From positions 1-20,603 of the forward strand of contig CANQSE010000004.1 in the NCBI GenBank assembly GCA_947626405.1: a stretch of 20,603 nt of DNA. Reading direction: 5' to 3'. Position 1 is the first letter of the stretch. Each line of letters opens with the position of its first letter. Below the pieces are notes generated by a model. It had not been told where the DNA came from. It searched no databases and saw only the letters and a list, made by a program, of their open reading frames with translations. This DNA comes from an uncultured Acetatifactor sp. (GTDB taxonomy: Bacteria > Bacillota > Clostridia > Lachnospirales > Lachnospiraceae). A program made the translations under genes and the position numbers. Positions 5,898-20,476 of the stretch are shown here, piece by piece.

Positions 5898-5958
5898 GCT
5901 TTATTCCCCGTTTTTCTTTTTTTCTGAGCCTTCCGGCCGACCCGTTACGCTCAAAGTC

Positions 5959-5967
5959 AGTATATCA
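5959..5967 (-). promoter_or_regulatory. Possible extended -10 promoter of the GH127 gene
   Basis: In the 95-base gap between the GLUG-protein gene and the GH127 gene the minus strand reads TGATATACT, an extended -10 (TG-n-TATACT), about 60 bases before the ATG. No good -35 box is at the expected distance, so an activator might be needed. A palindrome TTTCCGGAAA lies just upstream (5971-5980). Confidence 0.35.
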
Positions 5968-5992
5968 CACTTTCCGGAAAAGGAAAAGCCTG

Positions 5993-8900: not shown

Positions 8901-9319
8901 TCTATATAGCGGAACAGCCCTTCAACATAGCCGTCTGTACTCTGATAACCCGAGATCGTATGTCCTCCGCCGTCGAAGGTGCCCGAAAATACAGGTACAG
9001 TCTGAACATCTGCGCCTGACAGATCAATATCTGCACACAGCCTGACCTTTCTTCCCACCGACCAGGCGTCCATATGGCACTGTTCGGCAAACTGCACAAA
9101 ATCCTCCGCAGTATAAATGTCTGTCACCCTGACGCTCTGTATGTCTTCCTCCACGCCGGCCGCGTTGTCATCCTGTTCTGATCCGTCCTCCGCCGCGGTA
9201 CCGGACGGGCTTTCGTCCGCCCCTGCCGCCAAAAGCTCAACATGCGGTATGCTGCCGCATATTAACGTCAGCACGGCGCAAAGTACCGTCAATCCCGGCC
9301 ATTTACATGTCTTTTTCAT
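5993..9319 (-). CDS. Large membrane-anchored surface protein: GLUG repeats with an inserted coiled coil
   Basis: The 1108-aa protein starts with a signal peptide (residues 1-32). Residues 65-340 hold GLUG-type beta-helix repeats: an opening IYTAEDFVQFAEQ and SGTFDGGGHTISGY, then many GGI(V/A/C)G(V/L)N-G-I-C units. About 345-665 is long amphipathic helix with regularly spaced Leu/Val, predicted coiled coil. GLUG repeats resume at about 690-880. Residues near 905-980 resemble a Listeria-Bacteroides-type repeat (VIYRIDGTVLGTEEVPFGESL). It ends with a membrane span (1077-1097) and a basic tail KKKMRPKLCKK, so it is anchored with the bulk outside. Its ATG overlaps the stop of the MMPL gene by 4 bases (ATGA), so the two are translationally coupled and may work together. 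Function unknown; no enzyme motif seen. Confidence 0.85.
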   Translation of the reverse strand: MKKTCKWPGLTVLCAVLTLICGSIPHVELLAAGADESPSGTAAEDGSEQDDNAAGVEEDIQSVRVTDIYTAEDFVQFAEQCHMDAWSVGRKVRLCADIDLSGADVQTVPVFSGTFDGGGHTISGYQSTDGYVEGLFRYIEKDGVVENLHLSGNIESAEDEECIGGICGVNYGTIQDCSFEGSMSGRDTVGGIVGVNEGTGLVTRCKVTGHVDGYYMTGGIAGLNHGDITFCRNHSGINDDNKWVETDDEMGVGIFFSISATDSDVEFYSGVDTGGIAGYSDGFIAACENYGSVGYEHTGYNIGGIVGRHSGVVSMCTNSGRICGRKDVGGIVGQMEPFVEVDEAQSLRNAVNRLHDLIDTTLDHMQSGKDVMKADMDNLTLYGDGARNAGHALADQLTDFVDTNVSMLSELRVRTEYVTGQIPAILDDLSTAREAFGGFGEAVKNAVGDMTMESVSGNDTDVVTGDAPADLDTDGLKSTTDRVNTSLERIEALTASLGEQELAGADGAQILQELRDLEDAIGDLTESVSSAENALNRISDAAVPGRTGRDLEEASEKLRVMQEALKSAENRLQSVVSYINSQPVLRFTVLGQDFTQNREQLNVQLTGISDSLKSLSEHASDYSDIVNDDLKAVNDQLNVVFNLLADHLSGDSGLSLEEMYEEVSEDNTDAITTGRTEICTNSGVVRGDINIGGIAGSMSIDEEDPEDSAAGSIDYEIGRRFIMKCIIDRCVNEGYITAKKDGAGGVAGFMDHGIVISSESYGSASSTEGNYVGGICGQSFTVIRSCYSLCDVSGNKYVGGIAGYGCTLKDNYAIVNVTASAGKMGAIAGWTAYGTELVQEDEDRQICNNYYVGGEPYGIDGISYVGIAEPVSYETLLAVAGIPYEFRHLKVIYRIDGTVLGTEEVPFGESLAGLKYPDIPEKEGYYGVWPDCSDQVMKGNLVIDGEYKDTVLVVESGEKAPTEGENSYEMPYALVEQIFTEDTSLRVNIVEGQKPEEAAERESVSYEVILENGDVADSDVIAVRLLNPYEKAEVWVETDGAWTRLDALERGRYLQVDMTGPRQVFCVIDAHESIMKFVVPAGVCAALAILAAVLSCIKKKMRPKLCKK

Positions 9320-11814
9320 TCCGTCACCTCAGCACGCATATTTTTTTCCTTCTGTATCAGTTCCTCCAGCTCGCTGTCGTCATCCTCCCGCGGCTCAAGC
9401 TTTCCCATATTCACAAACAGGCTTGCCTCTCCCCGCACAAATCCATGGACTTCCCCGATGATAGTGCCGCTTATCTGGCCCTGCACCATCCCGTCTATAC
9501 GCATCAGTCCCGCCGTCCGTTCCATCTTCAGAGGAATTGATACCGCAAAGGACGTCTTGTCGATAATCTTTTCTCCGAGCAGCAGGATCTGCGGCAGCAC
9601 AAACATAACTATAAAAATTGATATTATCGTTCCGCGTCCAAGGCACTGGCCGATGCCGCATATAGCTCCGTCAGAGGACATCTGGCCTATAAAAATACCC
9701 GCCAGCGCAAGCATGGAACCTGACGTGACAATAGTCGGGAAAGCAAAATTCATGGTTTCTATTATCGCGTCCTTTTTTGACATTTTGTCCTTAAGCTCCA
9801 TGAATCTCCCCGAGATCACGATTGCATAGTCTATATTTGCACCCATCTGTATTGAGCTAACGATCAGATAGCTCATAAAAAACAGGTTCTTTCCCTGAAT
9901 CGCCGGGAATGAGAAATTGATCCAGATCGCTCCCTGTATGATCATGATAAGCAGTACCGGCATGCCCGCCGACATGAACGTAAATAGAAGCACCACAAGC
10001 ACTGCAAGTATCGACACCACATTCACCACGGTATTGTCCGTCTGGAACGTCTTGTACAGGTCATACTGGCTTGTCGCCTCACCCGGGATCAGAATAGTTC
10101 CCTCGTAATATTTTCCGGCGATCTCATGCATCTCGTCCAGGAACGCAAATGTTTCATCGCCCTCCTCCGGAAGGTTAAGATACACAAGCATACGGCTGTA
10201 GTCTTCTCCCTGGAGCTGATCCAGGGCAATCTGCATCTTGGAGTGGGCGTCCTCGAGAGTTTCCATCATGTCGTCCTCCAGCGTCACATATCCCTCCTTC
10301 ACCTCGTCGTAGAGGAACATGAAAATGTCAATCAGGGGAACGCTGTAGGCGGAAAGCCCGTTGACGATCTTTGCATAATTCTCGTCGTTTACGGCATATG
10401 TCATGTACAAAAGCTCCGCGACCTCATAATCGAGCTCCAGAAGCTCCGAAAACTCCCTGGCAGTCAGTTTGTCAGTCAGCATATAGCCGTCCATGGCCTC
10501 CGTGTTTGAAAGTCCCATGGTATAGTCAACCTCCGGCCTTAAGTCAAGCTCTTTTAAAAGCTGCTTTTCTTTTTCGTAGTTTCCCGCGGGGACGATCAGC
10601 GCCACCATATTTGACGCGCCGAAGCTCTCCTCTATCATTTCGTCCACAATCATTGAATCGCTCTTTACCGGCGTCTCAAGCATTGTGTAGCCATAGACAT
10701 ACGGACATTTCGACGATACGATATACGCCGCCACAATCAGCACGACAAACACAAGCGGCATGACATGTCTTGTCTTATATGCAAATTTTCCCACGAACGG
10801 AATCTTTGGTATAAAGCTTTTGTGAACCGTCCTGTCCATCGCCTTGCCAAACAGCATAATCAGCCCGGGCATCAGCAGAAATACCGCAAGAAGGCTGAGC
10901 AGAATAGCGCGTATAAGGCACAGCGCCATGTCGCTGCCTATCCCGAACTGCATAAACATCATTGCGATCAGTCCGCCTATTGTAGTAAGGGAGCTGGATG
11001 AAATCTCCGGTATCGCCTTGCTGAGAGCTATGATATCCGCCTCACGTATCGAAAGCTTTTGGTGCTCCTCCTTGTAGCGGTTGCAGAAAATCACCGCGTA
11101 ATCTATGGACAGTGCAAGCTGCAGCACAATCGTAACGGAATTTGACACAAAAGAAATCGTTCCCATAAAAAAATTCGTTCCCTTTGTGATGATCGCCGCG
11201 GCGCAGAAGGTCAGAAGCAGCACCGGAACCTCAGCCCAGGTCTGAGAGGTTAAAAGCAGCACTGTTACGACCACGACGGCCACAAGCACGCTTATCACCT
11301 TCATCTCTCCGGCTATCTGCTCCGCAGAAGCGTCTCCCATGCTTGTCGAGACATACAAGTCGTAATCCGACAGCATGGCTTTTACCTCGTCCAGGGCATC
11401 AAGCGCCCTCTCGTCAGTTTCCTCATAACCGAAGGTTATATCGTACAAGGCGGAAAAATTATTGTAATGTTCTGGAGTGTTGTCAAAGGTCAGCATGATA
11501 ACAGTGTCGAGATTTTCAAGTCTGTCCGCGATCCGCTCAGCCTCGTCATAAGGGATGTTCGTCACCATCACCTTTGCCGTACCGTATGTAATGAACTGCT
11601 CCTCCATTCTGTCAAGTCCCTGACGCGTCTCCGTGGAATCCGGCAGATAGGCAGACATGGCATTTTCCACTTTCACCCAGTTCATGGAAATTACGGAAAA
11701 GATAATCATTATGCCAAACAACAGAAAAAACAGATTCCGCCTGTCAACGATAAAGGTGGCCACCTTCATCATAAAGCTGTCGTTTTCATCCTTCTTATTT
11801 GTCTGCTTCGCCAT
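9316..11814 (-). CDS. MMPL/RND-superfamily membrane transporter
   Basis: The 832-aa protein has the two-fold MMPL layout. TM1 (about 29-48) is followed by a large outer loop (about 50-170), a block of five or six membrane spans (about 172-330), another TM near 355, a second large outer loop (about 375-600) and a final bundle of spans (about 605-740). Family motifs include LALSIDYAVIFCNRYKEE and MGANIDYAIVISGRFMEL, which carry the Asp-Tyr pairs expected in the proton-relay helices. It probably moves a lipid or hydrophobic molecule, or a protein, using the proton gradient. The roughly 85-residue C-terminal tail is unusual: it contains GMVQGQISGTIIGEVHGFV, a Gly-spaced beta-helix-like pattern, then an acidic stretch. 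AGGTG lies 5 bases before the ATG at 11814. Confidence 0.9.
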   Translation of the reverse strand: MAKQTNKKDENDSFMMKVATFIVDRRNLFFLLFGIMIIFSVISMNWVKVENAMSAYLPDSTETRQGLDRMEEQFITYGTAKVMVTNIPYDEAERIADRLENLDTVIMLTFDNTPEHYNNFSALYDITFGYEETDERALDALDEVKAMLSDYDLYVSTSMGDASAEQIAGEMKVISVLVAVVVVTVLLLTSQTWAEVPVLLLTFCAAAIITKGTNFFMGTISFVSNSVTIVLQLALSIDYAVIFCNRYKEEHQKLSIREADIIALSKAIPEISSSSLTTIGGLIAMMFMQFGIGSDMALCLIRAILLSLLAVFLLMPGLIMLFGKAMDRTVHKSFIPKIPFVGKFAYKTRHVMPLVFVVLIVAAYIVSSKCPYVYGYTMLETPVKSDSMIVDEMIEESFGASNMVALIVPAGNYEKEKQLLKELDLRPEVDYTMGLSNTEAMDGYMLTDKLTAREFSELLELDYEVAELLYMTYAVNDENYAKIVNGLSAYSVPLIDIFMFLYDEVKEGYVTLEDDMMETLEDAHSKMQIALDQLQGEDYSRMLVYLNLPEEGDETFAFLDEMHEIAGKYYEGTILIPGEATSQYDLYKTFQTDNTVVNVVSILAVLVVLLFTFMSAGMPVLLIMIIQGAIWINFSFPAIQGKNLFFMSYLIVSSIQMGANIDYAIVISGRFMELKDKMSKKDAIIETMNFAFPTIVTSGSMLALAGIFIGQMSSDGAICGIGQCLGRGTIISIFIVMFVLPQILLLGEKIIDKTSFAVSIPLKMERTAGLMRIDGMVQGQISGTIIGEVHGFVRGEASLFVNMGKLEPREDDDSELEELIQKEKNMRAEVTE

Positions 11815-11868: not shown

Positions 11869-11897
11869 GTTATACATCCCTTTTTGCCGATTGTCAA
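11869..11897 (-). promoter_or_regulatory. Strong sigma A promoter of the MMPL-GLUG operon
   Basis: The minus strand reads TTGACA (11897-11892), a 17-base spacer and TATAAC (11874-11869). The -35 box overlaps the TGA stop of cwlD (11896-11894), so the operon has its own vegetative promoter independent of the interrupted cwlD. The leader would be about 50 bases. Confidence 0.75.
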
Positions 11898-12448
11898 GTG
11901 TCTGAAGCAAGAAACTGAAGTATTCCCATATGGATTGCCCACGCCGCTCTGTCCTGATATACCGGATCGCACAGCTTTTCCGCCTCCGCCTCGTTCGACA
12001 AAAATCCACATTCTACAATTACAATCGGAAGCTTAGTCTTTTTTAACAGATAATAGCTGTCGTTTGCCTTGATACTGCGCTTATTGTCCCTGTCCGTCCT
12101 GGACACAAGCTGTTCCTGGATACAGGAGGCGAGTTTTTTGCCCTTGACGCTTCCGTCGTAATAAAAAACCTGAGCCCCGTGCACATACTCCTCGTGGTAA
12201 CTGTTCTGGTGGATGCTGACAACAATGCGCGGCTCAGTCTCGTCTATGAGCGCGATCCGGCGCTTCATATCCTGTACCTTTTTGTTGGAGGCGTCGGGAT
12301 CGTTAAGTCCGGCATCTTCTTCCCTGGTCATGACGACCCTTACGTCCGACAGCTCGAGATACTGCTTTACAAGCAGCGCAATTTTAAGATTTACGTCCTT
12401 TTCATAGACCCCGTTTATTCCCACCTTCCCCGGATCCGCGCCGCCGTG
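11894..12448 (-). pseudogene. cwlD: cwlD, 3' part: C-terminal 184 codons of a spore cortex N-acetylmuramoyl-L-alanine amidase
   Basis: The frame encodes HGGADPGKVGINGVYEKD, then VVMTREED, VVSIHQN, GAQVFYY, YYLLKK and VIVECGFLSNEAEAEK, which follow Bacillus CwlD closely to its end. Joined to the 5' part at 20440-20275 the protein is 236 aa (Bacillus CwlD is 237). In the joined protein the Amidase_3 residues are His53, Glu68 and His132 (zinc) and Glu198 (catalytic); this part supplies the last three plus a copy of the His53 codon within the repeat. As it stands the frame runs back into element DNA to a stop at 12482-12484 with no ATG. A GTG at 12424 could give 176 aa but lacks a properly spaced ribosome site. 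It is therefore silent unless the element excises. CwlD with PdaA makes muramic-delta-lactam in the cortex, needed for germination. Confidence 0.93.
12439..12448. repeat. Left att junction core
   Basis: CGCCGCCGTG, identical to 20275-20284. On the cwlD strand it reads CACGGCGGCG, the codons for zinc ligand His53, Gly54 and Gly55 and the first base of Ala56. Host cwlD lies to the left, element DNA to the right. Confidence 0.92.
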
Positions 12449-12449
12449 G

Positions 12450-12471
12450 GGCGGCGGCAGATTGCGCCGCC
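12450..12471. other. Left element arm of the att site (stem-loop)
   Basis: GGCGGCG (12450-12456) pairs with CGCCGCC (12465-12471) around an 8-base loop, followed by TTTCTT on the + strand. When the element circularises, GGCGGCGG at 12450-12457 faces CCGCCGCC of 20274-20281 as the inner arms of attP. It may therefore be a recombinase-binding arm rather than a transcription terminator. Confidence 0.5.
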
Positions 12472-12536
12472 TTTCTTGCGGTTATTCCGCTCTCCCTCAC
12501 TGCCTCAGACGATTTATGCAATCCGTCAGTGGCCGC

Positions 12537-12578
12537 AAAAAAGGCAGCTATAAACCGTTAAACAGGTTTATAACTGCC
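12537..12578 (-). terminator. Rho-independent terminator of the ABC exporter operon
   Basis: The 14-bp arms 12578-12565 and 12556-12543 pair with one G-U, around an 8-base loop, and are followed on the minus strand by six U (12542-12537). It lies 65 bases after the last ABC gene and inside the element, so cargo transcription stops before the 3' part of cwlD. Confidence 0.9.
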
Positions 12579-12642
12579 GTTACGCCATACCAGAATCTGT
12601 CCTCAAAATATTATAGAGATACAGTTTCCCGTCCTTTTAATT

Positions 12643-14550
12643 TCACAGATGCATGCGATCCGCTTCATACTGTCTTGATTTCTCGTAATACCGCGCCTGA
12701 GCGTCCCATAGCTCCCTGTACCTGCCCTGCGCCGCTATAAGTTCGTCGTGGCTCCCGTGCTGAATGATACTTCCGTCTTCAAAGACAAGTATCTCGCGGC
12801 AGAAGCGACAGCTCGAAAGCCTGTGTGAAATGTAAATAGCGGTGCGGTCGCCTGTGATTTTGTCAAAATTCCTGTATATTTCCGCCTCGGCCAGAGGATC
12901 CAGGCTTGCGGTAGGCTCGTCAAGCACGATAAACGGAGCGTCCTTGTAAAGCGCTCTTGCAATGGAGATTTTCTGACGTTCACCTCCTGAGACAACGATT
13001 CCGTCCTCGTCAAAATCCCTTCCGAGCCATGTCTCGATGCCATCAGGCAGTTCCTTCAGCCTGTCCTTTAGTCCCGCGTCCTCAAGACACTTTATGGCTC
13101 TGTCCGCATCTACGTCGCATGAACCCGCCACGTTCTGACCCAGCTTGTGGCTCATCAGCCAGAAGTCCTGGAACACCACCGAGAAAATGGCGATGTATTC
13201 GTCATAACGGTATTTTTTGATATTCACTCCGTTTAAAAGAATTTCACCCTCCTGTGGATCGTAGAGACGGCACAGGAGCTTGATAAAGGTGGATTTCCCT
13301 GAGCCGTTCTCGCCCACGACGGCAAGCTTTGTCCCCACCTCAAATTTTACGGAGACATGCCGGAGGGCCCACCTTTCGGAATTGGGATATTTAAAGCTCA
13401 CGTCCTTAAATTCCACATTGTATTTTCTGTCCCGGCGCTTTTCCGTGGTGAGCGAGCCCTGATACATTTTGTTTGGGATATCAAGAAACTCAAAAATATC
13501 CTTTAAAAATTTGGAATTGACCCGAAAATTGTTTAAAAGGTAAATACTCATTGTAAATCCGCTGATAAATCCCGATACCGCCCCTACATACCGCGCGACT
13601 TCTCCCAGGCCGAACGCGCCTCCCAGGGCTTTCAGACAGACAAACAGGTATATTACGCCCATAAGGAGCTTTTCCCCGAATACCGCACCTATCTTTGCAA
13701 GACCTGCCGCTCCCTTGTTTCTCCTGTCAACGGGTCCCCCAACTCCCCAGACGCGTCCTTCCCTGCACCAATTATAGTGCTTTATAAAGCCTTCGTTCTG
13801 GCTGTACATCCTGTAGTCAACCATTGCCTCCGGATTAAGCGGAAGAAAACCGAAATGAGCAAAGAGCCTGTTTCCGAATCTGGCCTTCTCACTCATTGCC
13901 GAATCGCGCTCTGTCATTATGCTGTTTAAAAATGGCGACACCGAGGCGCTGAGAAAAATAAGCGCAAGGAATCCCAGCACCGCAAACGGGCTGTTTAAAA
14001 AAACGTAAGGACTTTCCTGTGAAACTCTGCCTGTGATCAGTCCTACCGATATGGCAGACGCGCCGATGACTTTGAAGATATTTTCGACAAGCTCCCCGAA
14101 GGTCCACTCGATACGCGAAAATCCCCATCCCTTCCAGTTTCGGTTCTGTGCGATCTGAGCCGATAAATCCCGTACCCTTTGATCCTCCACGTCACAGTAG
14201 TCCATGGACATGAATTTTTCGTCTTCGATTCTCATCATATTGCTCCAGAAATTTACATTCCTGACAGCATAGGCATGATACATTATCCCGTTTATAAGCG
14301 CAAAAAACGCCGTGGAGACAAGCTGAAACACTGCCCAGAACACGAGCTTTTCAACCCTGCGCCCACCCGCCAGCTCTCCGATCAGCTGCGACATGATAAT
14401 CAGCGTCGCATAGGAAAAAACCGTATTTAAGAGAGCTTTAATCACCGCATAAGGAAACATCAGCTTATTTTTTGAATTTAATAACCTGATTGACCTGACG
14501 TTTATCTTCCATGCCTCACGCCACGGCATTTTGTCCTTTTTATCTGCCAT
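12643..14550 (-). CDS. ABC exporter half-transporter (permease-ATPase fusion), second subunit
   Basis: The 635-aa protein has an N-terminal membrane domain (about 30-345) and a C-terminal ATPase. Walker A is GENGSGKST (413-421), the Q-loop Gln461, the signature VSGGERQ (520-526), Walker B IVLDEP (541-546) and the switch His576. All catalytic residues are present. It starts directly after the TAA of the preceding ABC gene, and its ribosome site AGGAGG lies inside the end of that gene, so the two are translated together and probably form a heterodimer. Cargo could be a peptide, lipid or drug; there is no peptidase C39 domain and no precursor peptide gene is evident nearby. The strong terminator follows. 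Confidence 0.93.
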   Translation of the reverse strand: MADKKDKMPWREAWKINVRSIRLLNSKNKLMFPYAVIKALLNTVFSYATLIIMSQLIGELAGGRRVEKLVFWAVFQLVSTAFFALINGIMYHAYAVRNVNFWSNMMRIEDEKFMSMDYCDVEDQRVRDLSAQIAQNRNWKGWGFSRIEWTFGELVENIFKVIGASAISVGLITGRVSQESPYVFLNSPFAVLGFLALIFLSASVSPFLNSIMTERDSAMSEKARFGNRLFAHFGFLPLNPEAMVDYRMYSQNEGFIKHYNWCREGRVWGVGGPVDRRNKGAAGLAKIGAVFGEKLLMGVIYLFVCLKALGGAFGLGEVARYVGAVSGFISGFTMSIYLLNNFRVNSKFLKDIFEFLDIPNKMYQGSLTTEKRRDRKYNVEFKDVSFKYPNSERWALRHVSVKFEVGTKLAVVGENGSGKSTFIKLLCRLYDPQEGEILLNGVNIKKYRYDEYIAIFSVVFQDFWLMSHKLGQNVAGSCDVDADRAIKCLEDAGLKDRLKELPDGIETWLGRDFDEDGIVVSGGERQKISIARALYKDAPFIVLDEPTASLDPLAEAEIYRNFDKITGDRTAIYISHRLSSCRFCREILVFEDGSIIQHGSHDELIAAQGRYRELWDAQARYYEKSRQYEADRMHL

Positions 14551-16410
14551 TTACACCACCTCCTGTCCTTTATCATAATCCTCCTGATAATATCTGGCCT
14601 GAACCTCAAACAGGCGGGCATAATCCTTTCCAAGAGCCAAAAGCTCCTCGTGAGTGCCCTCCTCCGTTATTCTGCCCTCCTGCAGGTACAACACCCTGTC
14701 GCAGAAACGCGTGGAAGCCAGACGATGGGAGATAAAGAGGGAGGTCTTTCCGTCCGCCATAGAGCTGTATTTTCTATAAAGCTCTCTCTCTGCAAGGGGA
14801 TCCAGCGCGGCGGTAGGCTCGTCCAGAACAAGCACCGCGCCGTTTTTATACAATGCCCTTGCCAGAATAAGCCGCTGGGTCTGGCCTCCCGATAAAACAA
14901 CGCCGTCCAGGTACACCTCCCGCCCCAGATGGGTACAGAGTCCTTCAGGAAGCTCTGCCACGTCCTTTGTCAGCCCCGCCTTTTCTATGCAGTCGCGCAC
15001 GCGCTCCATATCTATGCCTTCGGCCGACTGGGCAACCGTCTCGGCCACCGTAATGTCAAACAGGTTAAAATTCTGAAATACTGCGGAAAACAGCTTATAA
15101 TATTCATTACGGTTAAATTTCTTAATATCAACTCCGCCTAACAACACCCTGCCCTCGTCAGGATCCAAAAGTCCTGTGATAAGCTTTATCAGGGTCGTCT
15201 TGCCCGCGCCGTTTAATCCCACGATGGCAACCTTCTCGCCGCGCTCTATGGTGAGATTCAGATTGTCTATGATCTTTTTGTCCGAGCCCGGGTAGCTGTA
15301 GCTTACGTTTTCAAGCCGGATATCATATGTATATTCCTCCGGTATCGGCTCTCCTTCTCCAAAGAAAAACGGCTCGGGATAGTTTAAAAATTCAAGTATT
15401 GCGGAAATATCCAGGCACTTATTCCTGATGTCAAGGAAATTGTTAAGGATCCCGCTGAACTGGTTGTTAAAGGAGCTGACCGCCGAAAAATAAAGCATAA
15501 ATTCCGTGGCGCTCATGCCGTTTTTAATACACAGCTCTAAAAGCAGGAACATCATGGCTCCGTTTCGCAGAAATTCCAGAACCATGCTGGAAAACGTTCC
15601 GATCAGATAAAAATCGTGCTCCTTTTTTGCGTACGCCTGACGCGCCGCCAAAGCCTTGTCCGTGAGACGTCCTATCCATCCCGACAGCCCGAACAGCCTG
15701 ATATCTTTTGCAGCGGAAAGCTGCCGCGGAAGACCTGCGAGGTACTGCGCCTGTCTGTCAATATGTGAAAGTTCCTCGCGGTGACGATAGTTGTATTTGT
15801 AGACATAGCCTGATATGGCAAATTCCACGACGCTTAATACTACAGTCACCGCAAAGGCAAGAGGATGAATATGCGTGAGCATTGCGGTAAAAAAGATAAA
15901 CATGACAAAATTTACACCCAGATTCTGAAGCGTGTGCCAGATTCCTTCTGTCGCCGAAGAATTTGAATTGCCGGCCCTGTACGCACGCTCCGCGGCCCGC
16001 AGGAATTTTTTGTCGAGGCAGTTGCAATAGGACGTAGAAACCGACTTGTCCGTGACCTCCTGCATGATCCATGAGCGCAGGTCACTCTGATAGCAGGCCT
16101 TTACGCCGCCGCTCCCCACGCCGTTTCCGATATATTGCACCACCGCATCCGACACAAAGCACCCGCCTATAAAAAACAGCGCCGTCAGAATCAGCTCCCC
16201 TGCCGTGCTGTGATTCTCCAGCCGCGAGAGGATCATCGGAGACATATAGAACCCGAAAACCGCACTTGATACGTTAAACAGAATCTGGAAAAACAAAAGC
16301 GCCACCGTCTCCGGCGTGTATTTAAGCGCTCTGCCGAAAAAGAAGCCGAGACACCTGAATACACCGTACTGCGGCTTTTCGCTCTGCTCGCTTTTTTCTT
16401 TCTTCTGCAT
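14551..16410 (-). CDS. ABC exporter half-transporter (permease-ATPase fusion), first subunit
   Basis: From the ATG at 16410 the protein is 619 aa. GGGAG lies 8 bases upstream, whereas the longer frame back to 16536 begins without a good site and would run through the promoter and terminator region. The membrane domain covers about 30-330. The ATPase has Walker A GLNGAGKTT (398-406), Gln446, signature LSGGQ (506-510), Walker B VLVLDEP (526-532) and His562. A soluble stretch with five cysteines near 83-170 is notable. With the next gene it should form a heterodimeric exporter. A LytTR-like site and its own promoter lie in the 129-base gap before it, so expression is probably set by the adjacent regulator. 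Confidence 0.93.
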   Translation of the reverse strand: MQKKEKSEQSEKPQYGVFRCLGFFFGRALKYTPETVALLFFQILFNVSSAVFGFYMSPMILSRLENHSTAGELILTALFFIGGCFVSDAVVQYIGNGVGSGGVKACYQSDLRSWIMQEVTDKSVSTSYCNCLDKKFLRAAERAYRAGNSNSSATEGIWHTLQNLGVNFVMFIFFTAMLTHIHPLAFAVTVVLSVVEFAISGYVYKYNYRHREELSHIDRQAQYLAGLPRQLSAAKDIRLFGLSGWIGRLTDKALAARQAYAKKEHDFYLIGTFSSMVLEFLRNGAMMFLLLELCIKNGMSATEFMLYFSAVSSFNNQFSGILNNFLDIRNKCLDISAILEFLNYPEPFFFGEGEPIPEEYTYDIRLENVSYSYPGSDKKIIDNLNLTIERGEKVAIVGLNGAGKTTLIKLITGLLDPDEGRVLLGGVDIKKFNRNEYYKLFSAVFQNFNLFDITVAETVAQSAEGIDMERVRDCIEKAGLTKDVAELPEGLCTHLGREVYLDGVVLSGGQTQRLILARALYKNGAVLVLDEPTAALDPLAERELYRKYSSMADGKTSLFISHRLASTRFCDRVLYLQEGRITEEGTHEELLALGKDYARLFEVQARYYQEDYDKGQEVV

Positions 16411-16456
16411 CTTTTCAACTCCCTTCTTTTTAAGCTTGTTCCCGCTTACGTTTATC

Positions 16457-16484
16457 AGCATATCACAAAAACCCCGAATGGTAA
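16457..16484 (-). promoter_or_regulatory. Promoter of the ABC exporter operon (extended -10)
   Basis: The minus strand has TTACCA (16484-16479), a 16-base spacer and TATGCT (16462-16457) preceded by TGA, an extended -10 (TG-n-TATGCT). The weak boxes suit activator control, and the LytTR-like repeats end a few bases upstream. The ATG at 16410 is about 40 bases from the expected start. Confidence 0.5.
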
Positions 16485-16493
16485 GATTCGGGG
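16467..16493 (-). terminator. Terminator/attenuator between the two-component genes and the ABC operon
   Basis: CCCCGAAT (16493-16486) and ATTCGGGG (16479-16472) form a perfect 8-bp stem with a 6-base loop, followed on the minus strand by five U (16471-16467). It would end most transcripts of the regulator-kinase genes. The ABC operon's -35 box falls in its loop and its -10 just beyond, so transcripts started at that promoter escape it. Confidence 0.85.
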
Positions 16494-16526
16494 ACGAATT
16501 GTCATTTTTTGGGGATGAGTTGCAAT
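16490..16526 (-). promoter_or_regulatory. LytTR-type direct repeat, candidate binding site of the encoded response regulator
   Basis: Two 16-base copies, 16526-16511 (ATTGCAACTCATCCCC) and 16505-16490 (ATGACAATTCGTCCCC), match at 12 positions with a period of 21 bp. AgrA/LytTR regulators bind pairs of short direct repeats about two helical turns apart just upstream of -35 boxes, which is exactly where this pair lies. Binding by this regulator is an inference. Confidence 0.55.
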
Positions 16527-16539
16527 CAGAATACACAAA

Positions 16540-17217
16540 TCAGGAGTTTGCTTCAGATACAGACAGCGGCAGCAGGACCTCCGTGGTAAACGCGCCCGCC
16601 TCGGAGTTGTGGGAAACATAACCTCCAAGACGCTTCACCACCGAATCAATTCTGCCAAGGCCGAGACCGCGCTCCGTTCCCCTGGTGCTTTTAAAGATAC
16701 CGCCTACCTTCGTAAGCTTGCCCGAAGCTGTAAAATTTAAAAAAGAAATGTATAGCTGGCTTCCCTTTACATCAATATAGACGCGTATCACGCGTCTGTC
16801 CTCCGGCAGACTTACGCTTGCTTCAATGGCATTGTCAAAAAGATTTCCTATGATTATGCACAAATCAACCGCAGATACGGAGAGAAGGACCGGAATATTC
16901 GCGTCCACATCAACTCTTATATGCCGGTCGTTTGCCAGAGCTATTTTGGAATTAAGGATTGCGTCAGTCATGGAATTGCCGGTCTTTATTACCATATCGA
17001 CTGTATACAGATCGGTTTCCAGCTCGTTAAGATATTCCGCGATGGCTTCAAGATCGCCTTTGTCCGTATAGGATTTTAAAACCTGAATATGGTTTCTGTA
17101 GTCGTGCCGCCAGCCGCGCATTTTGCGGTACATATTGTCAACCTCGGCAAAGTGGGTCTTTAGAAGCTCCTGCTGATATGCCTCAACTTTTTTGTCTGTC
17201 CTTCGGGATAATTTCAC
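16540..17217 (-). CDS. GHKL-type sensor histidine kinase lacking a sensor domain (AgrC-like core)
   Basis: The 225-aa protein carries only the kinase core of the AgrC class. The phosphoacceptor is His38 in WRHDYRNH, the N-box is NLFDNAIEA (125-133) with Asn125 and Asn129, and the ATP lid/G-box is GLGLG (184-188). All catalytic residues look intact. There is no membrane segment and no room for one: the response regulator stop is 15 bases upstream of the GTG at 17217, which has a GGGGG-rich ribosome site. It should be cytosolic. It could take its input from another membrane protein, such as the exporter encoded next to it, or from a soluble signal. It is co-transcribed with the regulator and ends before the terminator at 16467-16493. 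Confidence 0.88.
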   Translation of the reverse strand: MKLSRRTDKKVEAYQQELLKTHFAEVDNMYRKMRGWRHDYRNHIQVLKSYTDKGDLEAIAEYLNELETDLYTVDMVIKTGNSMTDAILNSKIALANDRHIRVDVDANIPVLLSVSAVDLCIIIGNLFDNAIEASVSLPEDRRVIRVYIDVKGSQLYISFLNFTASGKLTKVGGIFKSTRGTERGLGLGRIDSVVKRLGGYVSHNSEAGAFTTEVLLPLSVSEANS

Positions 17218-17232
17218 GTTTTCGCCCCCATA

Positions 17233-17928
17233 TCATTTAAGCCGTATGATCGCCCTGTTGACCGTCTCGTATGCGCCCCTGGGAATAGGGATTTTCTCAT
17301 TGTTTAAGAAAAAGAGCTCCGTATGCGTCACGCGCGAGACATAACGCAGGTTGACTATGTAAGATCTCCCCACCTTAAGAAATCGATCGTCCAGCTCCTC
17401 TCCGATCTCCTTAAGTGTCTTTTTTACGGTATAGTCTCCGCCCGCATGGATTGTTATATAATTCCTGACGACTTCGATGTAGCGTATCTCATAAACGGGA
17501 AGAAGCACAGTCTCCCCGCCAGCCTCAATCACAAGCTTTCTCCCGTCTGTCTCAAGCCTTTCCACAGCGCGATCAAGCGTGGAGAAAAACTTTTCAGGCG
17601 ATACGGGTTTCAAAAGGTAGTGCAGCGCCGCCACTTCGTAGCCCTCTGCGATATACTCGGAATAACCCGTTATAAAGACGATCTGAACAAGCTTGTTTAC
17701 CGCGCGGAGACGCTTCGCCAGCTCAACTCCGTTCATCCCCGGCATCTCAATATCAAGAAGCACAACATCCGGAACACTGTCTTCATATCCGAACAGAAAA
17801 GCCTCTGCATCAGGAAATTCGCAGATATCGGTGTCCGTACCGGACCTCCGCTCCCAATCCCTCACAAGTGACCGTATATAAGCGCGCTCCTCAGAATCGT
17901 CGTCACAGATACAGATCTTAACAGACAT
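17233..17928 (-). CDS. LytTR-family response regulator (AgrA-like)
   Basis: From the ATG at 17928 the protein is 231 aa; AAGGAG lies 6 bases upstream, favouring this over the longer frame to 17961. The receiver domain (1-120) has the acidic pocket CDDD (8-11), phosphoacceptor Asp59 in VVLLDIEMPG, Thr87 and Lys107. The LytTR DNA-binding domain covers about 130-231 with the typical IRYIEVVRNYITIH and FLKVGRSYIVNLRYV segments. It pairs with the adjacent kinase and most likely activates the ABC operon through the repeats at 16490-16526. A near-consensus sigma A promoter lies just upstream (17980-18007). Confidence 0.92.
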   Translation of the reverse strand: MSVKICICDDDSEERAYIRSLVRDWERRSGTDTDICEFPDAEAFLFGYEDSVPDVVLLDIEMPGMNGVELAKRLRAVNKLVQIVFITGYSEYIAEGYEVAALHYLLKPVSPEKFFSTLDRAVERLETDGRKLVIEAGGETVLLPVYEIRYIEVVRNYITIHAGGDYTVKKTLKEIGEELDDRFLKVGRSYIVNLRYVSRVTHTELFFLNNEKIPIPRGAYETVNRAIIRLK

Positions 17929-17979
17929 AGCAGACTCCTTACAGCCCATGACACTTTCCATGTCGTCCGCAGCAAATTC

Positions 17980-18007
17980 ATTATAACAGACCGCGCCGGA
18001 TTTTCAA
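17980..18007 (-). promoter_or_regulatory. Near-consensus sigma A promoter of the regulator-kinase operon
   Basis: TTGAAA (18007-18002) and a perfect TATAAT (17985-17980) are 16 bases apart on the minus strand. The start point falls about 45 bases before the response-regulator ATG. The -10 box overlaps the stop codon of the coding remnant upstream. Confidence 0.75.
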
Positions 18008-18274
18008 ACAAATATTTCTGAACCACTCCTTTTCCTTCCATGGCGCAAATATACCGCTTTTGCTGCCAGTCAGGCCGTCGGAAAGCATTTCACAAAATGT
18101 CGCCACCTCTGTTTTTTCGGCGTTGCGTATAACGTGCGGATTGTTTTTCATGCCGCAAAAGAGCCTTGAGCCATAAACAAATTCCCCGCAAAGACTGTCA
18201 GCCTGAACCGCTAAGCTGAGCGCCCTTTCCAGATTGTACCTGATTTTTTCTTCATTGCCGCGCTCCGAATCATA
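17981..18274 (-). pseudogene. Orphan coding remnant lacking a start codon
   Basis: Between the recombinase and the response regulator the minus strand keeps one frame open for 97 codons. It opens right after a TAA (18277-18275) and ends at TAA (17983-17981). The translation looks like real protein, with a charged helical start (NEEKIRYNLERALSLAVQAD) and a C-terminal APWKEKEWFRNICLKIRRGL. There is no ATG in the first third; the first Met is about 55 residues from the end. The short ATG frames at its 5' end hit a stop quickly. It looks like the C-terminal piece of a deleted gene. I do not recognise the family. Its codon use resembles its neighbours. Confidence 0.5.
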
Positions 18275-18300
18275 TTATCAGGTCCCATACCGTCATAATG
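18271..18300. repeat. Left copy of a duplicated operator-like module
   Basis: On the + strand CATATTATCAGG (18271-18282) is followed by CCGTCATAATG (18290-18300). The right copy at 20164-20194 has CATATTATTAGG (11 of 12 identical) followed by CATTATGACGG, the exact reverse complement of the second word. Because the right word sits in a dyad, both may bind the same protein. Confidence 0.5.
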
Positions 18301-18302
18301 CC

Positions 18303-18331
18303 ACTATATACCCTGCGGAGTAAGGTTTCAA
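18303..18331 (-). promoter_or_regulatory. Candidate sigma A promoter upstream of the coding remnant
   Basis: TTGAAA (18331-18326), 17 bases and TATAGT (18308-18303) on the minus strand. The operator-like word at 18300-18290 lies right at the expected start point. It may once have driven the now truncated gene and could still add to transcription of the regulator-kinase genes. Confidence 0.45.
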
Positions 18332-18396
18332 TGACGTATAGGGTCAATATGGGGCGGAATAATCGCCCTGAGAGCGGTTCATATAATTTCTTCCGT

Positions 18397-19983
18397 TCAT
18401 AAACTCATCTTTCCGTTCATCAATTCATCCGAGAACCGATATGTAATCTCGAGCTTATTATTTTCGTACACCTTAATTTCCTGTACCATTTCCGCCACAA
18501 TGTATCTGTCCAGTTCCTCCACCTTTTCTGCATCAAGAAGATGTTTTATCCACGGCTGCGCCGATGCGCCGTCTTTGCGTATGCGCCTGCCTGCGTCCAG
18601 TTCCTCCAGCATTTTTTTCAGATTATCCTCTTTCTTTTGAAAAGTCCGGCTGAAATCAATATATTCCTCTTTTGAAATCACTTCATCAAGATAGTCCCCG
18701 TACGCTTTTCTTCGGTGAATCCGTATCTTTTCAATTTCGGCGCACAGTTTGTCCCTTTCGCTGTTTAACCTGTCCGCGCCCGCATCCTCTGACGAAAATA
18801 TCTTTTTTACCGTTTCGTTCAGATCATTCAGATTTTTTAGCATCGTGTTTAAGTCGCCGAGAATTATTTCATCCAGGACCGAAAGCGAAACGGCGTGAGG
18901 AGTGCAGAACTGTCTTCCGGAGCGCACATATGTGCCGCATAAAAAACGAATTTCTCCTGTGCCGTTTTGCCCTGCTTTTGACTTTTTTACCATGGCTCTG
19001 CCGCAGTCCGCGCATCTTAAATAACCTGCAAGGATCGTCCTGTCTGCGTTAAGACCCGAAGCCCTTGTCCGCCGCCGTAGCAGATTTTGAGTCCTCTCCC
19101 ACGTCGCCTCGTCTATGACCGCCTCGTGCGTCCCCCTTACGACAATCCAGTCTTCCTTCGCCGCACTCCGCTGCTTTCCCCTCATCCGCTGGGTTTTCTT
19201 TCCCTGCACCATGCTTCCCCTGTAAATTTCGTTAGACAGGATCCGATGGATCGTTGAGTACGTCCAGTAGGATGTGCTTTCCAGTCTGTGACCGTTTCGA
19301 TAGTTTTCTCCGTTAAGCTTCTTATATTCCGAGGGGCATACAATTCCCTCTTTATTTAACAGAGCAGCTATGGCATTCTTTCCCATACCTTTGCCATAAA
19401 GCGCAAATATCCTCCTGACTACGCCCGCCGCGTACCCGTCGATAATAAGCCTGTTTTTATCTGTTGGTGATTTGCAGTATCCATAGCTTGCAAAAGCCCC
19501 TATAAATTCTCCGGCTTTCTGTTTTGTCCTCATTGCTGCGTGAACTTTTTCAGATATGTCTCTGGCGTATTGCTCGTTAAAGATGTTTTTGATTGGAAGC
19601 AGCATGTCGTACGCCTGTCTTGCGCTGTCGATGCCGTCTGTGATTGAAATAAATCTGACATTCCTGTCAGGGAAAAACCGCTCCAGATATTTTCCCGTGT
19701 CAATATAATCACGGCCAAAACGGGACAGATCCTTTACTACGACACAGTTCACCCTTCCCGCCTCGATATCCTCTATCATTTTTATAAAGGCAGGACGGTT
19801 AAAATTCGTTCCCGTAAAGCCGTCGTCAACGTATGTCTCAAACAGGGCAAATTCTTCCTTTGTCTCCAGATAATCACATATGAGCCTTCTCTGATTTACG
19901 ATGCTGTCGCTCTCCGCCCTGTCGCCGTCCTCTCTGGATAATCTTATGTAAGCCGCCGCATTGTACGCAGGATGTTCAATCAC
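18397..19983 (-). CDS. Large serine recombinase (TnpX/SpoIVCA type)
   Basis: The 528-aa product has the three regions of large serine recombinases. The catalytic resolvase domain (about 8-150) has Ser16 in YIRLSRED, with Arg14, and Arg88/Arg91 in KDLSRFGRDYI. The Recombinase domain (about 165-270) is followed by a zinc ribbon with Cys324, Cys327, Cys349 and Cys360. A coiled coil (about 395-465) and a C-terminal segment (KVYENNKLEITYRFSDEL) close the protein. All catalytic residues are present, so it is likely active. The GTG start at 19983 has AGGAG 9 bases upstream. It lies about 290 bases inside the right att core and should carry out both integration and excision of this element. It reads in the same direction as cwlD and overlaps a small ORF by 8 bases. 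Confidence 0.95.
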   Translation of the reverse strand: MIEHPAYNAAAYIRLSREDGDRAESDSIVNQRRLICDYLETKEEFALFETYVDDGFTGTNFNRPAFIKMIEDIEAGRVNCVVVKDLSRFGRDYIDTGKYLERFFPDRNVRFISITDGIDSARQAYDMLLPIKNIFNEQYARDISEKVHAAMRTKQKAGEFIGAFASYGYCKSPTDKNRLIIDGYAAGVVRRIFALYGKGMGKNAIAALLNKEGIVCPSEYKKLNGENYRNGHRLESTSYWTYSTIHRILSNEIYRGSMVQGKKTQRMRGKQRSAAKEDWIVVRGTHEAVIDEATWERTQNLLRRRTRASGLNADRTILAGYLRCADCGRAMVKKSKAGQNGTGEIRFLCGTYVRSGRQFCTPHAVSLSVLDEIILGDLNTMLKNLNDLNETVKKIFSSEDAGADRLNSERDKLCAEIEKIRIHRRKAYGDYLDEVISKEEYIDFSRTFQKKEDNLKKMLEELDAGRRIRKDGASAQPWIKHLLDAEKVEELDRYIVAEMVQEIKVYENNKLEITYRFSDELMNGKMSL

Positions 19984-20128
19984 GTTCCTTTGCTCCTGAC
20001 GGCTGTTTTTCGTCCACGCGGTTTATGTGGGATCGCAGTATGCGAGCGACAAGCTCTGCGGCGGAAATTTGTGATAAATACTTTCTTTCCACATCGTATG
20101 CGGCGGCAGATTTCCCGATTGTTTCCAA
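19976..20128 (-). CDS. 50-aa ORF overlapping the recombinase; possible accessory/directionality factor
   Basis: A TTG at 20128, with GAGAGG 6 bases upstream, opens a 50-residue frame rich in charged residues and predicted helix (VERKYLSQISAAELVARI near 13-30). Its TGA (19978-19976) lies inside the first codons of the recombinase gene, whose GTG is at 19983, so the two would be translationally coupled. The frame is open further upstream to a TAA near 20165 but without an ATG. I recognise no family. Small proteins next to serine integrases are often recombination directionality factors; that role is inference from position and size only. A GTG at codon 13 is another possible start. Confidence 0.5.
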   Translation of the reverse strand: METIGKSAAAYDVERKYLSQISAAELVARILRSHINRVDEKQPSGAKERD

Positions 20129-20163
20129 GGCGTCCTCTCTCCGTCCCCATTCTTTACAAAAAA

Positions 20164-20196
20164 CATATTATTAGGGGCACGTCCATTATGACGGAC
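20164..20196 (-). promoter_or_regulatory. Operator-like dyad and -10 region upstream of the recombinase genes
   Basis: GTCCATTATGACGGAC (20181-20196) is an imperfect palindrome with 12 of 16 symmetric positions. Downstream on the minus strand, CCTAATAATATG (20175-20164) could supply a -10 box (TAATAA/TAATAT) for the 50-aa ORF and recombinase. No clear -35 is seen, and the dyad covers the place where it would be. This suggests a repressed or autoregulated promoter. Confidence 0.4.
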
Positions 20197-20210
20197 ACTC
20201 CCGGATCATT

Positions 20211-20232
20211 GCGCCGTGCGCGGCGCCTTTTT
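20211..20232 (+). terminator. GC-rich hairpin with U-tract on the + strand
   Basis: GCGCCG (20211-20216) and CGGCGC (20221-20226) form a stem with a TGCG loop, followed by C and five T on the + strand. It could stop rightward transcripts at the element boundary. On the minus strand no U-tract follows, so it should not stop transcripts coming from cwlD into the recombinase gene. Confidence 0.5.
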
Positions 20233-20239
20233 ACGCCTC

Positions 20240-20440
20240 TTAGGTATGCCTGCGTAAGCCGCGCCGCAAAATACCGCCGCCGTGCCCTGCGTCAATGACA
20301 ACGCACGGACGATCCTCATCAATAACGTTGACCCTGTCACCGCTTGCATAGAAAGCCGTCTCACGGCCCACATACACGGCGGACAGGAGCAGCAGCGCCG
20401 CCATGGCCGCTGCAAGAAAATGATTCTGATACTTTTTCAT
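20240..20440 (-). pseudogene. cwlD: cwlD, 5' part: signal sequence and first zinc motif of the spore cortex amidase
   Basis: The frame begins MKKYQNHFLAAAMAALLLLS, a signal peptide or membrane anchor as in Bacillus CwlD, and continues to VVIDAGHGG (residues 47-55). At that point it enters element DNA, adds 11 foreign codons (GILRRGLRRHT) and stops at 20240. The host-derived part is 20275-20440. The His53 codon lies in the att core. The ATG at 20440 has AGGA 8 bases upstream. As it stands the product is a 66-aa export-signal peptide with no catalytic domain. In frame with the 3' part at 12448-11894 it gives a complete 236-aa CwlD. Confidence 0.93.
20275..20284. repeat. Right att junction core
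   Basis: CGCCGCCGTG, identical to 12439-12448. Element DNA lies to the left and the 5' part of cwlD to the right. If the attP dyad centre marks the crossover, the exchanged dinucleotide is TG at 20283-20284, the CA of the His53 codon on the coding strand. Confidence 0.92.
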
Positions 20441-20468: not shown

Positions 20469-20476
20469 AATGTATG
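20469..20476 (-). promoter_or_regulatory. Sporulation-type (sigma E/G-like) -10 box of cwlD
   Basis: The minus strand reads CATACATT, fitting the Bacillus sigma E -10 consensus CATACAHT and resembling the sigma G box. It lies 29 bases before the ATG, leaving a short leader with an AGGA ribosome site. No convincing -35 is visible (GTTTTAAA at the sigma E distance). Bacillus cwlD is reported to be under sigma E and sigma G, which supports the reading. Transcripts would run through the 5' part of cwlD into the recombinase. Confidence 0.5.

Follow-up and report, generated by a model that had tools for sequence, protein, structure and literature searches.

In an uncultured Acetatifactor sp. (Lachnospiraceae), the spore cortex amidase gene cwlD is interrupted at the codon of a predicted zinc-ligand histidine by a small, non-phage serine-recombinase element that is probably kept as a sporulation intervening element of the skin, SPbeta, and gin kind. 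Matching insertions in three spore cell-wall genes (cwlD, a gene for a CwlC-like amidase, and pdaB) suggest that the cell cuts such elements out when it makes a spore. The DNA analyzed (the window) is 20,603 nucleotides long and constitutes the entire contig C4 (CANQSE010000004.1) of a 1.97-Mb, 85%-complete metagenome-assembled genome (MAG) in 287 contigs. An original prediction, made from the letters of the window without database searches, had claimed that a serine-recombinase element splits cwlD and that its removal restores the frame exactly.

Rejoining of cwlD by in silico removal of the element

The split gene and its element lie on the minus strand, to which all coordinates given for them refer. 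The 5' part of cwlD (20275-20440), delimited by its open reading frame (ORF) and a search for the core, extends from the start codon to DAGHGG, and its final 10 bp are the shared core. The 3' part (11894-12448) begins with the His codon (HGGADPGKVG...), and the ORF within it (11894-12424) matches Amidase_3 (E value of 1e-38) and TIGR02883 (172.3 bits). The core, CGCCGCCGTG in plus-strand letters, is present in exactly two copies in the window, one at 12439-12448 on the cwlD-3' side and one at 20275-20284 on the cwlD-5' side, 7,836 bp apart; its reverse complement is absent from the window. Deletion of one core copy together with the intervening DNA (12449-20284; 7,836 bp including one core copy) leaves an open 236-amino-acid frame with VVIDAGHGGADPGKVG spanning the joint, exactly as predicted. 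The insertion also falls where it had been placed, as H53 of the joined protein is the histidine of DAGHGG.

The best NCBIfam family of the joined protein is TIGR02883 (CwlD), although its score of 203.7 bits lies under the curated cutoff of 221.55 bits. Because all four intact same-genus CwlD proteins tested also score under this cutoff (206.6 to 216.1 bits), the cutoff evidently misses the genus. The MAG contains three Amidase_3 genes. The two besides cwlD are open frames of 458 and 379 codons; the former has DPGHGG, and a search for DAGHGG-type motifs found none in the latter. Thus, no second cwlD was seen in this MAG.

Recurrence of the split within the genus

In 61 relatives, the four recombinases closest to that of the window are 61 to 65% identical to it and the next best is 39%. 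All four elements interrupt cwlD at that same codon and range from 2.7 to 9.5 kb; elements cut at the same motif in relatives span 2.6 to 9.5 kb. When 138 genomes of the genus were scanned with a threshold for clade membership of E ≤ 1e-130, 12 carried a recombinase of this clade. In 10 of the 12 carriers (the window's own MAG, G017, G022, G027, G031, G067, G116, G147, G154, and G138), it resides in cwlD at the His codon, with G138 represented by the 5' half and G154 by the 3' half only. In the other two (G084 and G120), the target is a CwlC-like amidase, as judged by the 3' halves. Three additional genomes (G005, G012, and G133) have a cwlD 3' half beside the tail of a clade recombinase or an element end.

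A CwlD match is present in 123 of the 138 genomes, and cwlD is split in 20 of these 123 (12 at the His codon, 1 in G064, and 7 at codon 198), plus G138. Loci were fetched for partial matches that looked split; other matches, those beginning near residue 40 to 45 with long open frames, were taken as intact, an assumption checked on two loci (L158 and L159). Full- or near-full-length matches of ∼46 to 74% identity were listed for most genomes of the genus, and these homologues show that both pieces in the window are parts of one gene rather than of different amidase genes. In the 99%-complete G031, no second cwlD was found among four Amidase_3 genes. The origin of the window as one of the 287 contigs of a MAG would be in keeping with an assembly chimera, which the original prediction had named as a way for its claim to fail. 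However, the same kind of junction and conserved element ends recur in independent MAGs and in strain genomes, among them Parablautia muri D42-62 (L069) and Lachnospiraceae bacterium 10-1 (L085), where cwlD is cut at the identical codon. An assembly error is therefore very unlikely.

As judged from their sequences, two further, more distant recombinase systems (22 to 36% identity) split cwlD elsewhere in the genus. In G064, the split comes a few codons later in cwlD, and the adjacent recombinase is 36% identical. In seven genomes (G014, G019, G026, G068, G135, G141, and G158), cwlD breaks off after VIVE and is followed by an almost identical foreign end, YCVSDRQT[GD]L. Five of the seven have serine recombinases of 22 to 36% identity beside the truncated gene on the opposite strand, with three consecutive ones in G019, G068, and G135 and a single piece in G014 and G141; no recombinase was seen in G026 and G158, whose contigs stop short. 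Of the five codon-198 genomes that gave a TsaC locus, two (G141 and G068) have the missing tail (CGFLSN...) upstream of TsaC, on a separate contig, such that both cwlD parts are available for two of the seven. Such a triplet of serine recombinases adjoins cwlD, interrupted at its Glu codon, in L150, L153, and L156, in a layout reminiscent of gin.

Related elements in three spore-wall genes

The search was extended beyond the genus by scanning genomes from 84,980 species. The best 80 of 115 relatives were retained, mostly from Lachnospiraceae with a few from Erysipelotrichia and others, as labeled in the records. The full set comprised 92 loci (the window and L019 to L109). Among these loci were 58 amidase 3' halves, of which 52 are distinct. 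In all 58, HGG is preceded by residues of the element end and never by DAG, and 57 of the 3' halves lie on the recombinase strand (the exception is L075). The reading frame is open through the domain in 51 of the 52 distinct 3' halves. A 5' half was also seen in 26 of the 58 rows, ending in DAGHG (DPGHG in L090). Among the carriers that are strains, P. muri D42-62 (L069) shows both cwlD halves, and Mediterraneibacter agrestimuris DSM 111629 (L084) shows a CwlC-like 3' half.

The amidase halves belong to CwlD and to a second, CwlC-like type (L090 is another amidase), the latter label reflecting what we take to be a resemblance to CwlC of Bacillus subtilis. In 7 of 10 CwlC-like 5' halves, only 19 to 21 residues separate the last stop from the end of GHG, leaving no room for a signal peptide, and SPOR was found in four of six non-CwlD halves scanned. 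A polysaccharide deacetylase gene, cut near SFDA-W, is the target instead at 24 of the 92 loci. PdaB (TIGR02764) was the best family for both deacetylase 3' halves tested, with 204.5 and 204.8 bits against a cutoff of 237.4. By our labels, pdaB copies are mostly on the opposite strand from the recombinase (20/24 loci). In L037 and L055, the pdaB 3' half is itself in two pieces at different places.

On a tree of 80 recombinases, the targets, as labeled by us and in a few cases from a single half, were cwlD (n = 29, including the far outgroup L148), candidate cwlD (n = 5), CwlC-like amidase (n = 17), pdaB (n = 23), and unassigned (n = 6). The last group consists of L044 and L082 (amidase 5' end), L096 (amidase 5' end on the other strand), L090, L083, and L108. 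Without the outgroup, one of the three targets (cwlD, a CwlC-like amidase, or pdaB) could be assigned to 73 of 79 clade members. The labels change 33 times on the tree, compared with a minimum of 5 and a mean of 43.9 after shuffling (as low in 0/200 shuffles); targets are thus clustered yet switch often. Identical recombinases even occur in one MAG (MO.6_4) in two genes, L038 in cwlD and L039 in a CwlC-like amidase.

Attachment site and choice of target

The element ends, taken from relatives, form an inverted repeat around CCAY (e.g., CCGCAACTTACTACCGCC-CCAY-GGCGGAAGTCAGTTGCGG in L039; dyad read by eye). The dyad is centered on CA, with which the His codon begins, and this center is the same at both ends in the rows compared by eye. 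Lying at the center of the attP dyad, this CA is the probable dinucleotide of strand exchange. From the codons, the amidase site would be GAYGCNGGN-CA-YGGNGG and the pdaB site GAYGCNGCN-TG-GGGNAA, with a common left arm and a reversed central dinucleotide, which would explain why most pdaB copies are inverted.

These sites bear on an alternative in which the element is a selfish mobile element that prefers DAGHGG-type DNA, disables cwlD, the CwlC-like gene, or pdaB, and undergoes no timed excision; its hosts would bear a cost or be losing spore function, and the halves would be intact because the insertions are recent. The degenerate amidase site GAYGCNGGNCAYGGNGG occurs only eight times in four genomes (three cwlD, three CwlC-like, and two unrelated frames). 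All 10 large amidases (456 to 505 codons) with the motif have GAYCCN, encoding DPGHGG, as does one CwlC-like gene (L180). Sequence preference alone can therefore account for insertion into spore amidase genes. The idea that amidases are targeted because spore genes are selected for was rejected as unneeded, since the site sequence singles these amidases out; the count covered the amidase site only. The closest named kin of the window recombinase are the large resolvases TnpX (domain E value of 9e-29) and TndX (35% identity), enzymes of transposons Tn4451 and Tn5397, as a selfish element would have it.

The partner ORF and possible control of the recombinase

The large serine recombinase of the window (18397-19983; 528 amino acids) contains only Resolvase, Recombinase, and Zn ribbon domains by Pfam. 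Its start is overlapped by 8 nucleotides by a conserved 50-amino-acid ORF with a TTG start (19976-20128), and by pattern, such a partner lies just upstream of the recombinase in 64 of 80 rows. An E, an R, an L, and an E are invariant in 38 aligned partner ORFs. The window partner had no Pfam, NCBIfam, or PHROG match, and its structure model (pLDDT of 73, pTM of 0.44) was too weak for a fold search. The partner is a candidate directionality factor.

A box, GCATATTGGATAAGCC-N6-CATATGTTG, occurs upstream of the partner. With a profile trained on the same sequences against which it was scored, the threshold was exceeded in 60 of 77 loci but in none of 385 Markov controls; the window box, at 11.2, was just under it. 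With the window held out, the weak copy at 20149-20194 was the best match of both strands, at a low score of 7.8 (next best in the window, 6.6), and 0 of 1,000 shuffles reached it. The right half of the box resembles the CATA-type −10 element upstream of cwlD in the genus, while the left half and spacer do not. The pattern CATA[CT][AGT].T was present in 13 of 34 cwlD upstream regions (1.6 expected); upstream of cwlD in the window lies a candidate sporulation −10 box, CATACATT (20469-20476, minus strand). Patterns found upstream of the recombinase were a loose sigma-E-like one (13/76; 3.2 expected) and sigma-K-like (2/76; 1.3), sigma-G-like (1/76; 4.2), and sigma-A-like (7/76; 6.8) ones. It is possible that the box is a sporulation promoter.

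Read-through from the cwlD promoter was considered as the sole driver of the recombinase. This would fit the window, but it was rejected on account of the opposite orientation of most pdaB copies and of L019, whose recombinase lies >7 kb from the 5' half.

Selection, spread, and host sporulation

One lineage of four genomes (G017, G027, G116, and G067) permitted an estimate of selection. Synonymous divergence of the recombinase (0.17 to 0.31 and 0.76 to 0.80) is of the same order as that of TsaC (0.16 to 0.21 and 0.98 to 1.21), as expected if the split is ancestral in this lineage, in which the element looks vertically inherited. The ratio of nonsynonymous to synonymous divergence (dN/dS) of the cwlD 3' half is 0.025 to 0.104 over six pairs, compared with 0.043 to 0.094 for TsaC (three TsaC pairs rest on 64 to 68 codons). 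For the 5' half, dN/dS is 0.037 to 0.331 over 10 pairs including G138, with the two highest values from very close pairs. Judged by these ratios, both separated cwlD halves are under purifying selection like the intact neighbor TsaC in this lineage. Among all pairs with dS of <1.5, which are not independent, median dN/dS is 0.111 for split cwlD (17 pairs, 26 rows) and 0.1305 for intact cwlD (40 pairs, 29 rows).

In 38 of the 58 amidase 3' halves, no start codon follows the last in-frame stop; these halves are thus untranslatable as they lie, and a replacement 5' end supplied by the element was rejected as a general route. The hosts also retain sporulation genes: Spo0A was found in all 12 carriers in the genus and SpoIVA in 11, with both present in the 11 carriers other than the window's MAG.

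Several observations weigh against retention of the element as a sporulation intervening element. The window's copy has no close sister and lies outside the lineage used to measure selection, and SpoIVA was not found in its 85%-complete MAG, in which Spo0A is present. A possible upstream start codon exists in 20 of the 58 3' halves. The cwlD-like 3' half of L045 (12311-12608), near a contig end, contains two in-frame stops, has a conserved His replaced by Pro, and is either decayed or badly read. The recombinases of L038, L091, L043, and L104 are 87 to 95% identical in DNA while the cwlD sequences are 61 to 91% identical, and L059 and L030 share 89% in the recombinase and 67% in cwlD. Because recombinase identity exceeds cwlD identity, some copies have moved between hosts recently, and their intact halves prove little. 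Finally, the sigma-E-like reading of the box is weak, as the left half and spacer are conserved too, part of the box is an inverted repeat, and cwlD promoters of the genus share only the −10-like half.

The horizontal movement and the apparent decay of L045 favor a selfish element. Purifying selection on both halves in a lineage apparently carrying the element since its common ancestor, the sporulation genes kept by carriers, and the presence of other recombinase systems in cwlD nevertheless make that explanation unlikely. Preservation of both halves in one lineage would also suit a stochastic ON/OFF switch, in which random excision and reinsertion in growing cells would leave only part of the spores germinable, as a form of bet-hedging. 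Portions of the work on gin describe serine recombinases that act in either direction given a partner (PMC5595907), and in L088, the two pdaB halves flank the recombinase but are on opposite strands, as though a segment had been inverted. Mixed states, however, are not in evidence, and the conserved box upstream of the partner-recombinase pair suggests controlled expression; we consider such a switch improbable.

Element anatomy and cargo

From the 5' side, the element encodes the 50-amino-acid ORF, the recombinase (starting at base 302 of the element), a response regulator with a LytTR domain (17233-17961), a GHKL histidine kinase in which the domain search detected no sensor domain (16540-17217), and two ABC exporter subunits (14551-16536 and 12643-14550; Pfam and NCBIfam). 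The predicted cargo of an exporter and a two-component pair, along with the recombinase, is thus all present. No phage structural family was matched by PHROGs among the recombinase and the four cargo proteins; the named matches were integrase, invertase, and ABC transporter, and the remainder were families of unknown function. A phage origin was rejected, as one viral-contig relative is 47% identical and the best phage 39%. DUF4368 was not detected in the recombinase by Pfam, and Rfam and tRNA searches of the window gave no match.

The exporter and two-component cargo looks incidental, with the other copies examined carrying different cargo or almost none. The smallest elements contain the recombinase, the partner, a toxin-antitoxin-like pair or a 176-amino-acid ORF, and little more, in which they resemble the minimum for SPbeta, sprA and the 58-amino-acid sprB (PMC4191935). 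A 174- to 176-amino-acid ORF recurs after the recombinase in minimal elements (e.g., L021, 12329-12859); the L021 copy had no Pfam, NCBIfam, or PHROG match. The small elements of L081, L087, L080, and L034 have pairs of small ORFs that resemble toxin-antitoxin pairs by eye. Four cwlD elements (L020, L022, L062, and L140) contain genes matching vanH, a D-Ala-D-Lac ligase, and vanX; the ligase and VanX of L022 exceed NCBIfam cutoffs, and the others were assigned by similarity to L022. A VanR-like regulator is present in L140, with a homologue in L062. The L069 element encodes a large CotH-kinase protein and a DUF4956 protein, and homologues of both occur in L085.

Outside the element, genes for an MMPL transporter, a GLUG-repeat protein, and a glycoside-hydrolase-like protein lie between cwlD and TsaC (window positions 4044-11814). 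In several relatives, cwlD and TsaC are close neighbors.

Relation to known intervening elements

The original prediction could not match such an element to a described system. This holds only in part: elements of this kind are already known, while the target genes and the use of three of them by one recombinase clade appear new. Portions of three published accounts describe the skin/sigK, SPbeta/spsM, vfbin/spoVFB, gin/gerE, and yin/yabG pairs (PMC10747680, PMC5595907, and PMC4191935). Like the window element with its candidate partner, SPbeta of B. subtilis pairs a serine recombinase with a small protein, and a spore-envelope gene there is rebuilt by exact excision of SPbeta; according to part of that account, sprA and the 58-amino-acid sprB suffice for excision (PMC4191935). 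SprA (YokA) is among the PDB matches of the window recombinase. SPbeta is a phage, in contrast to the window element with no match to a phage structural family, and its target gene differs; excision here is only predicted.

The gin element in gerE of Bacillus cereus is likewise a non-phage element in a sporulation gene, with a short identical core, its own recombinase (GirC), and a small directionality factor (GirX, which GirC needs), as described in part of PMC5595907; the window partner would be the counterpart of GirX. At 28.6 kb with three recombinases in that description, gin is larger than the window element (7.8 kb with one), and the multirecombinase elements at cwlD codon 198 are closer to it in layout. 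The skin, vfbin, and yin elements also split sporulation genes, but these are other genes and the elements are prophage-like, and the portion of PMC10747680 consulted does not mention a multitarget recombinase. TndX-like enzymes fall in a multitargeting clade and most have DUF4368 (PMC10083194), unlike the window recombinase; the word "amidase" is absent from the main text of that paper.

A search of the PMC literature, which does not cover subscription papers or preprints, found none that named cwlD, a CwlC-like amidase, or pdaB as the target of an intervening element. The class of system is thus known, while the target genes, host group, and multigene recombinase clade appear new.

Proposed cycle and implications

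CwlD takes part in making the muramic-delta-lactam of the cortex, which allows the spore to germinate, and cwlD is thought to be needed by gut bacteria for germinable spores. We propose that the predicted zinc-ligand histidine codon of cwlD was the site at which the element integrated. During sporulation, probably in the mother cell, whose chromosome is discarded, recombination between the two cores by the partner and recombinase would free the element as a circle and restore an intact cwlD. Rebuilt CwlD would then help make muramic-delta-lactam in the cortex, enabling germination, and the forespore chromosome would retain the element. Relatives of the module may use CwlC-like and pdaB genes because the codons of catalytic motifs give similar attB DNA.

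Tentatively, one recombinase-partner module may act as a shared developmental switch for spore-wall genes. The L038 and L039 elements would then be removed together, and cortex synthesis, mother-cell lysis, and late spore-wall steps in a clade of gut bacteria would depend on the coordinated removal of such intron-like elements, with cwlD a general hot spot for three recombinase systems at three sites.

Programmed DNA removal from sporulation genes is known for a small number of genes, found in Bacillus and some Clostridia. In the present case, the pattern appears in gut Lachnospiraceae and their neighbors, in genes for the spore wall itself, with one recombinase clade switching among three genes and two further systems in cwlD. 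If the proposed cycle is true, germination competence of gut commensals would be controlled by a mobile element, and sporulation in gut genomes would be misjudged if such split genes were annotated as pseudogenes.

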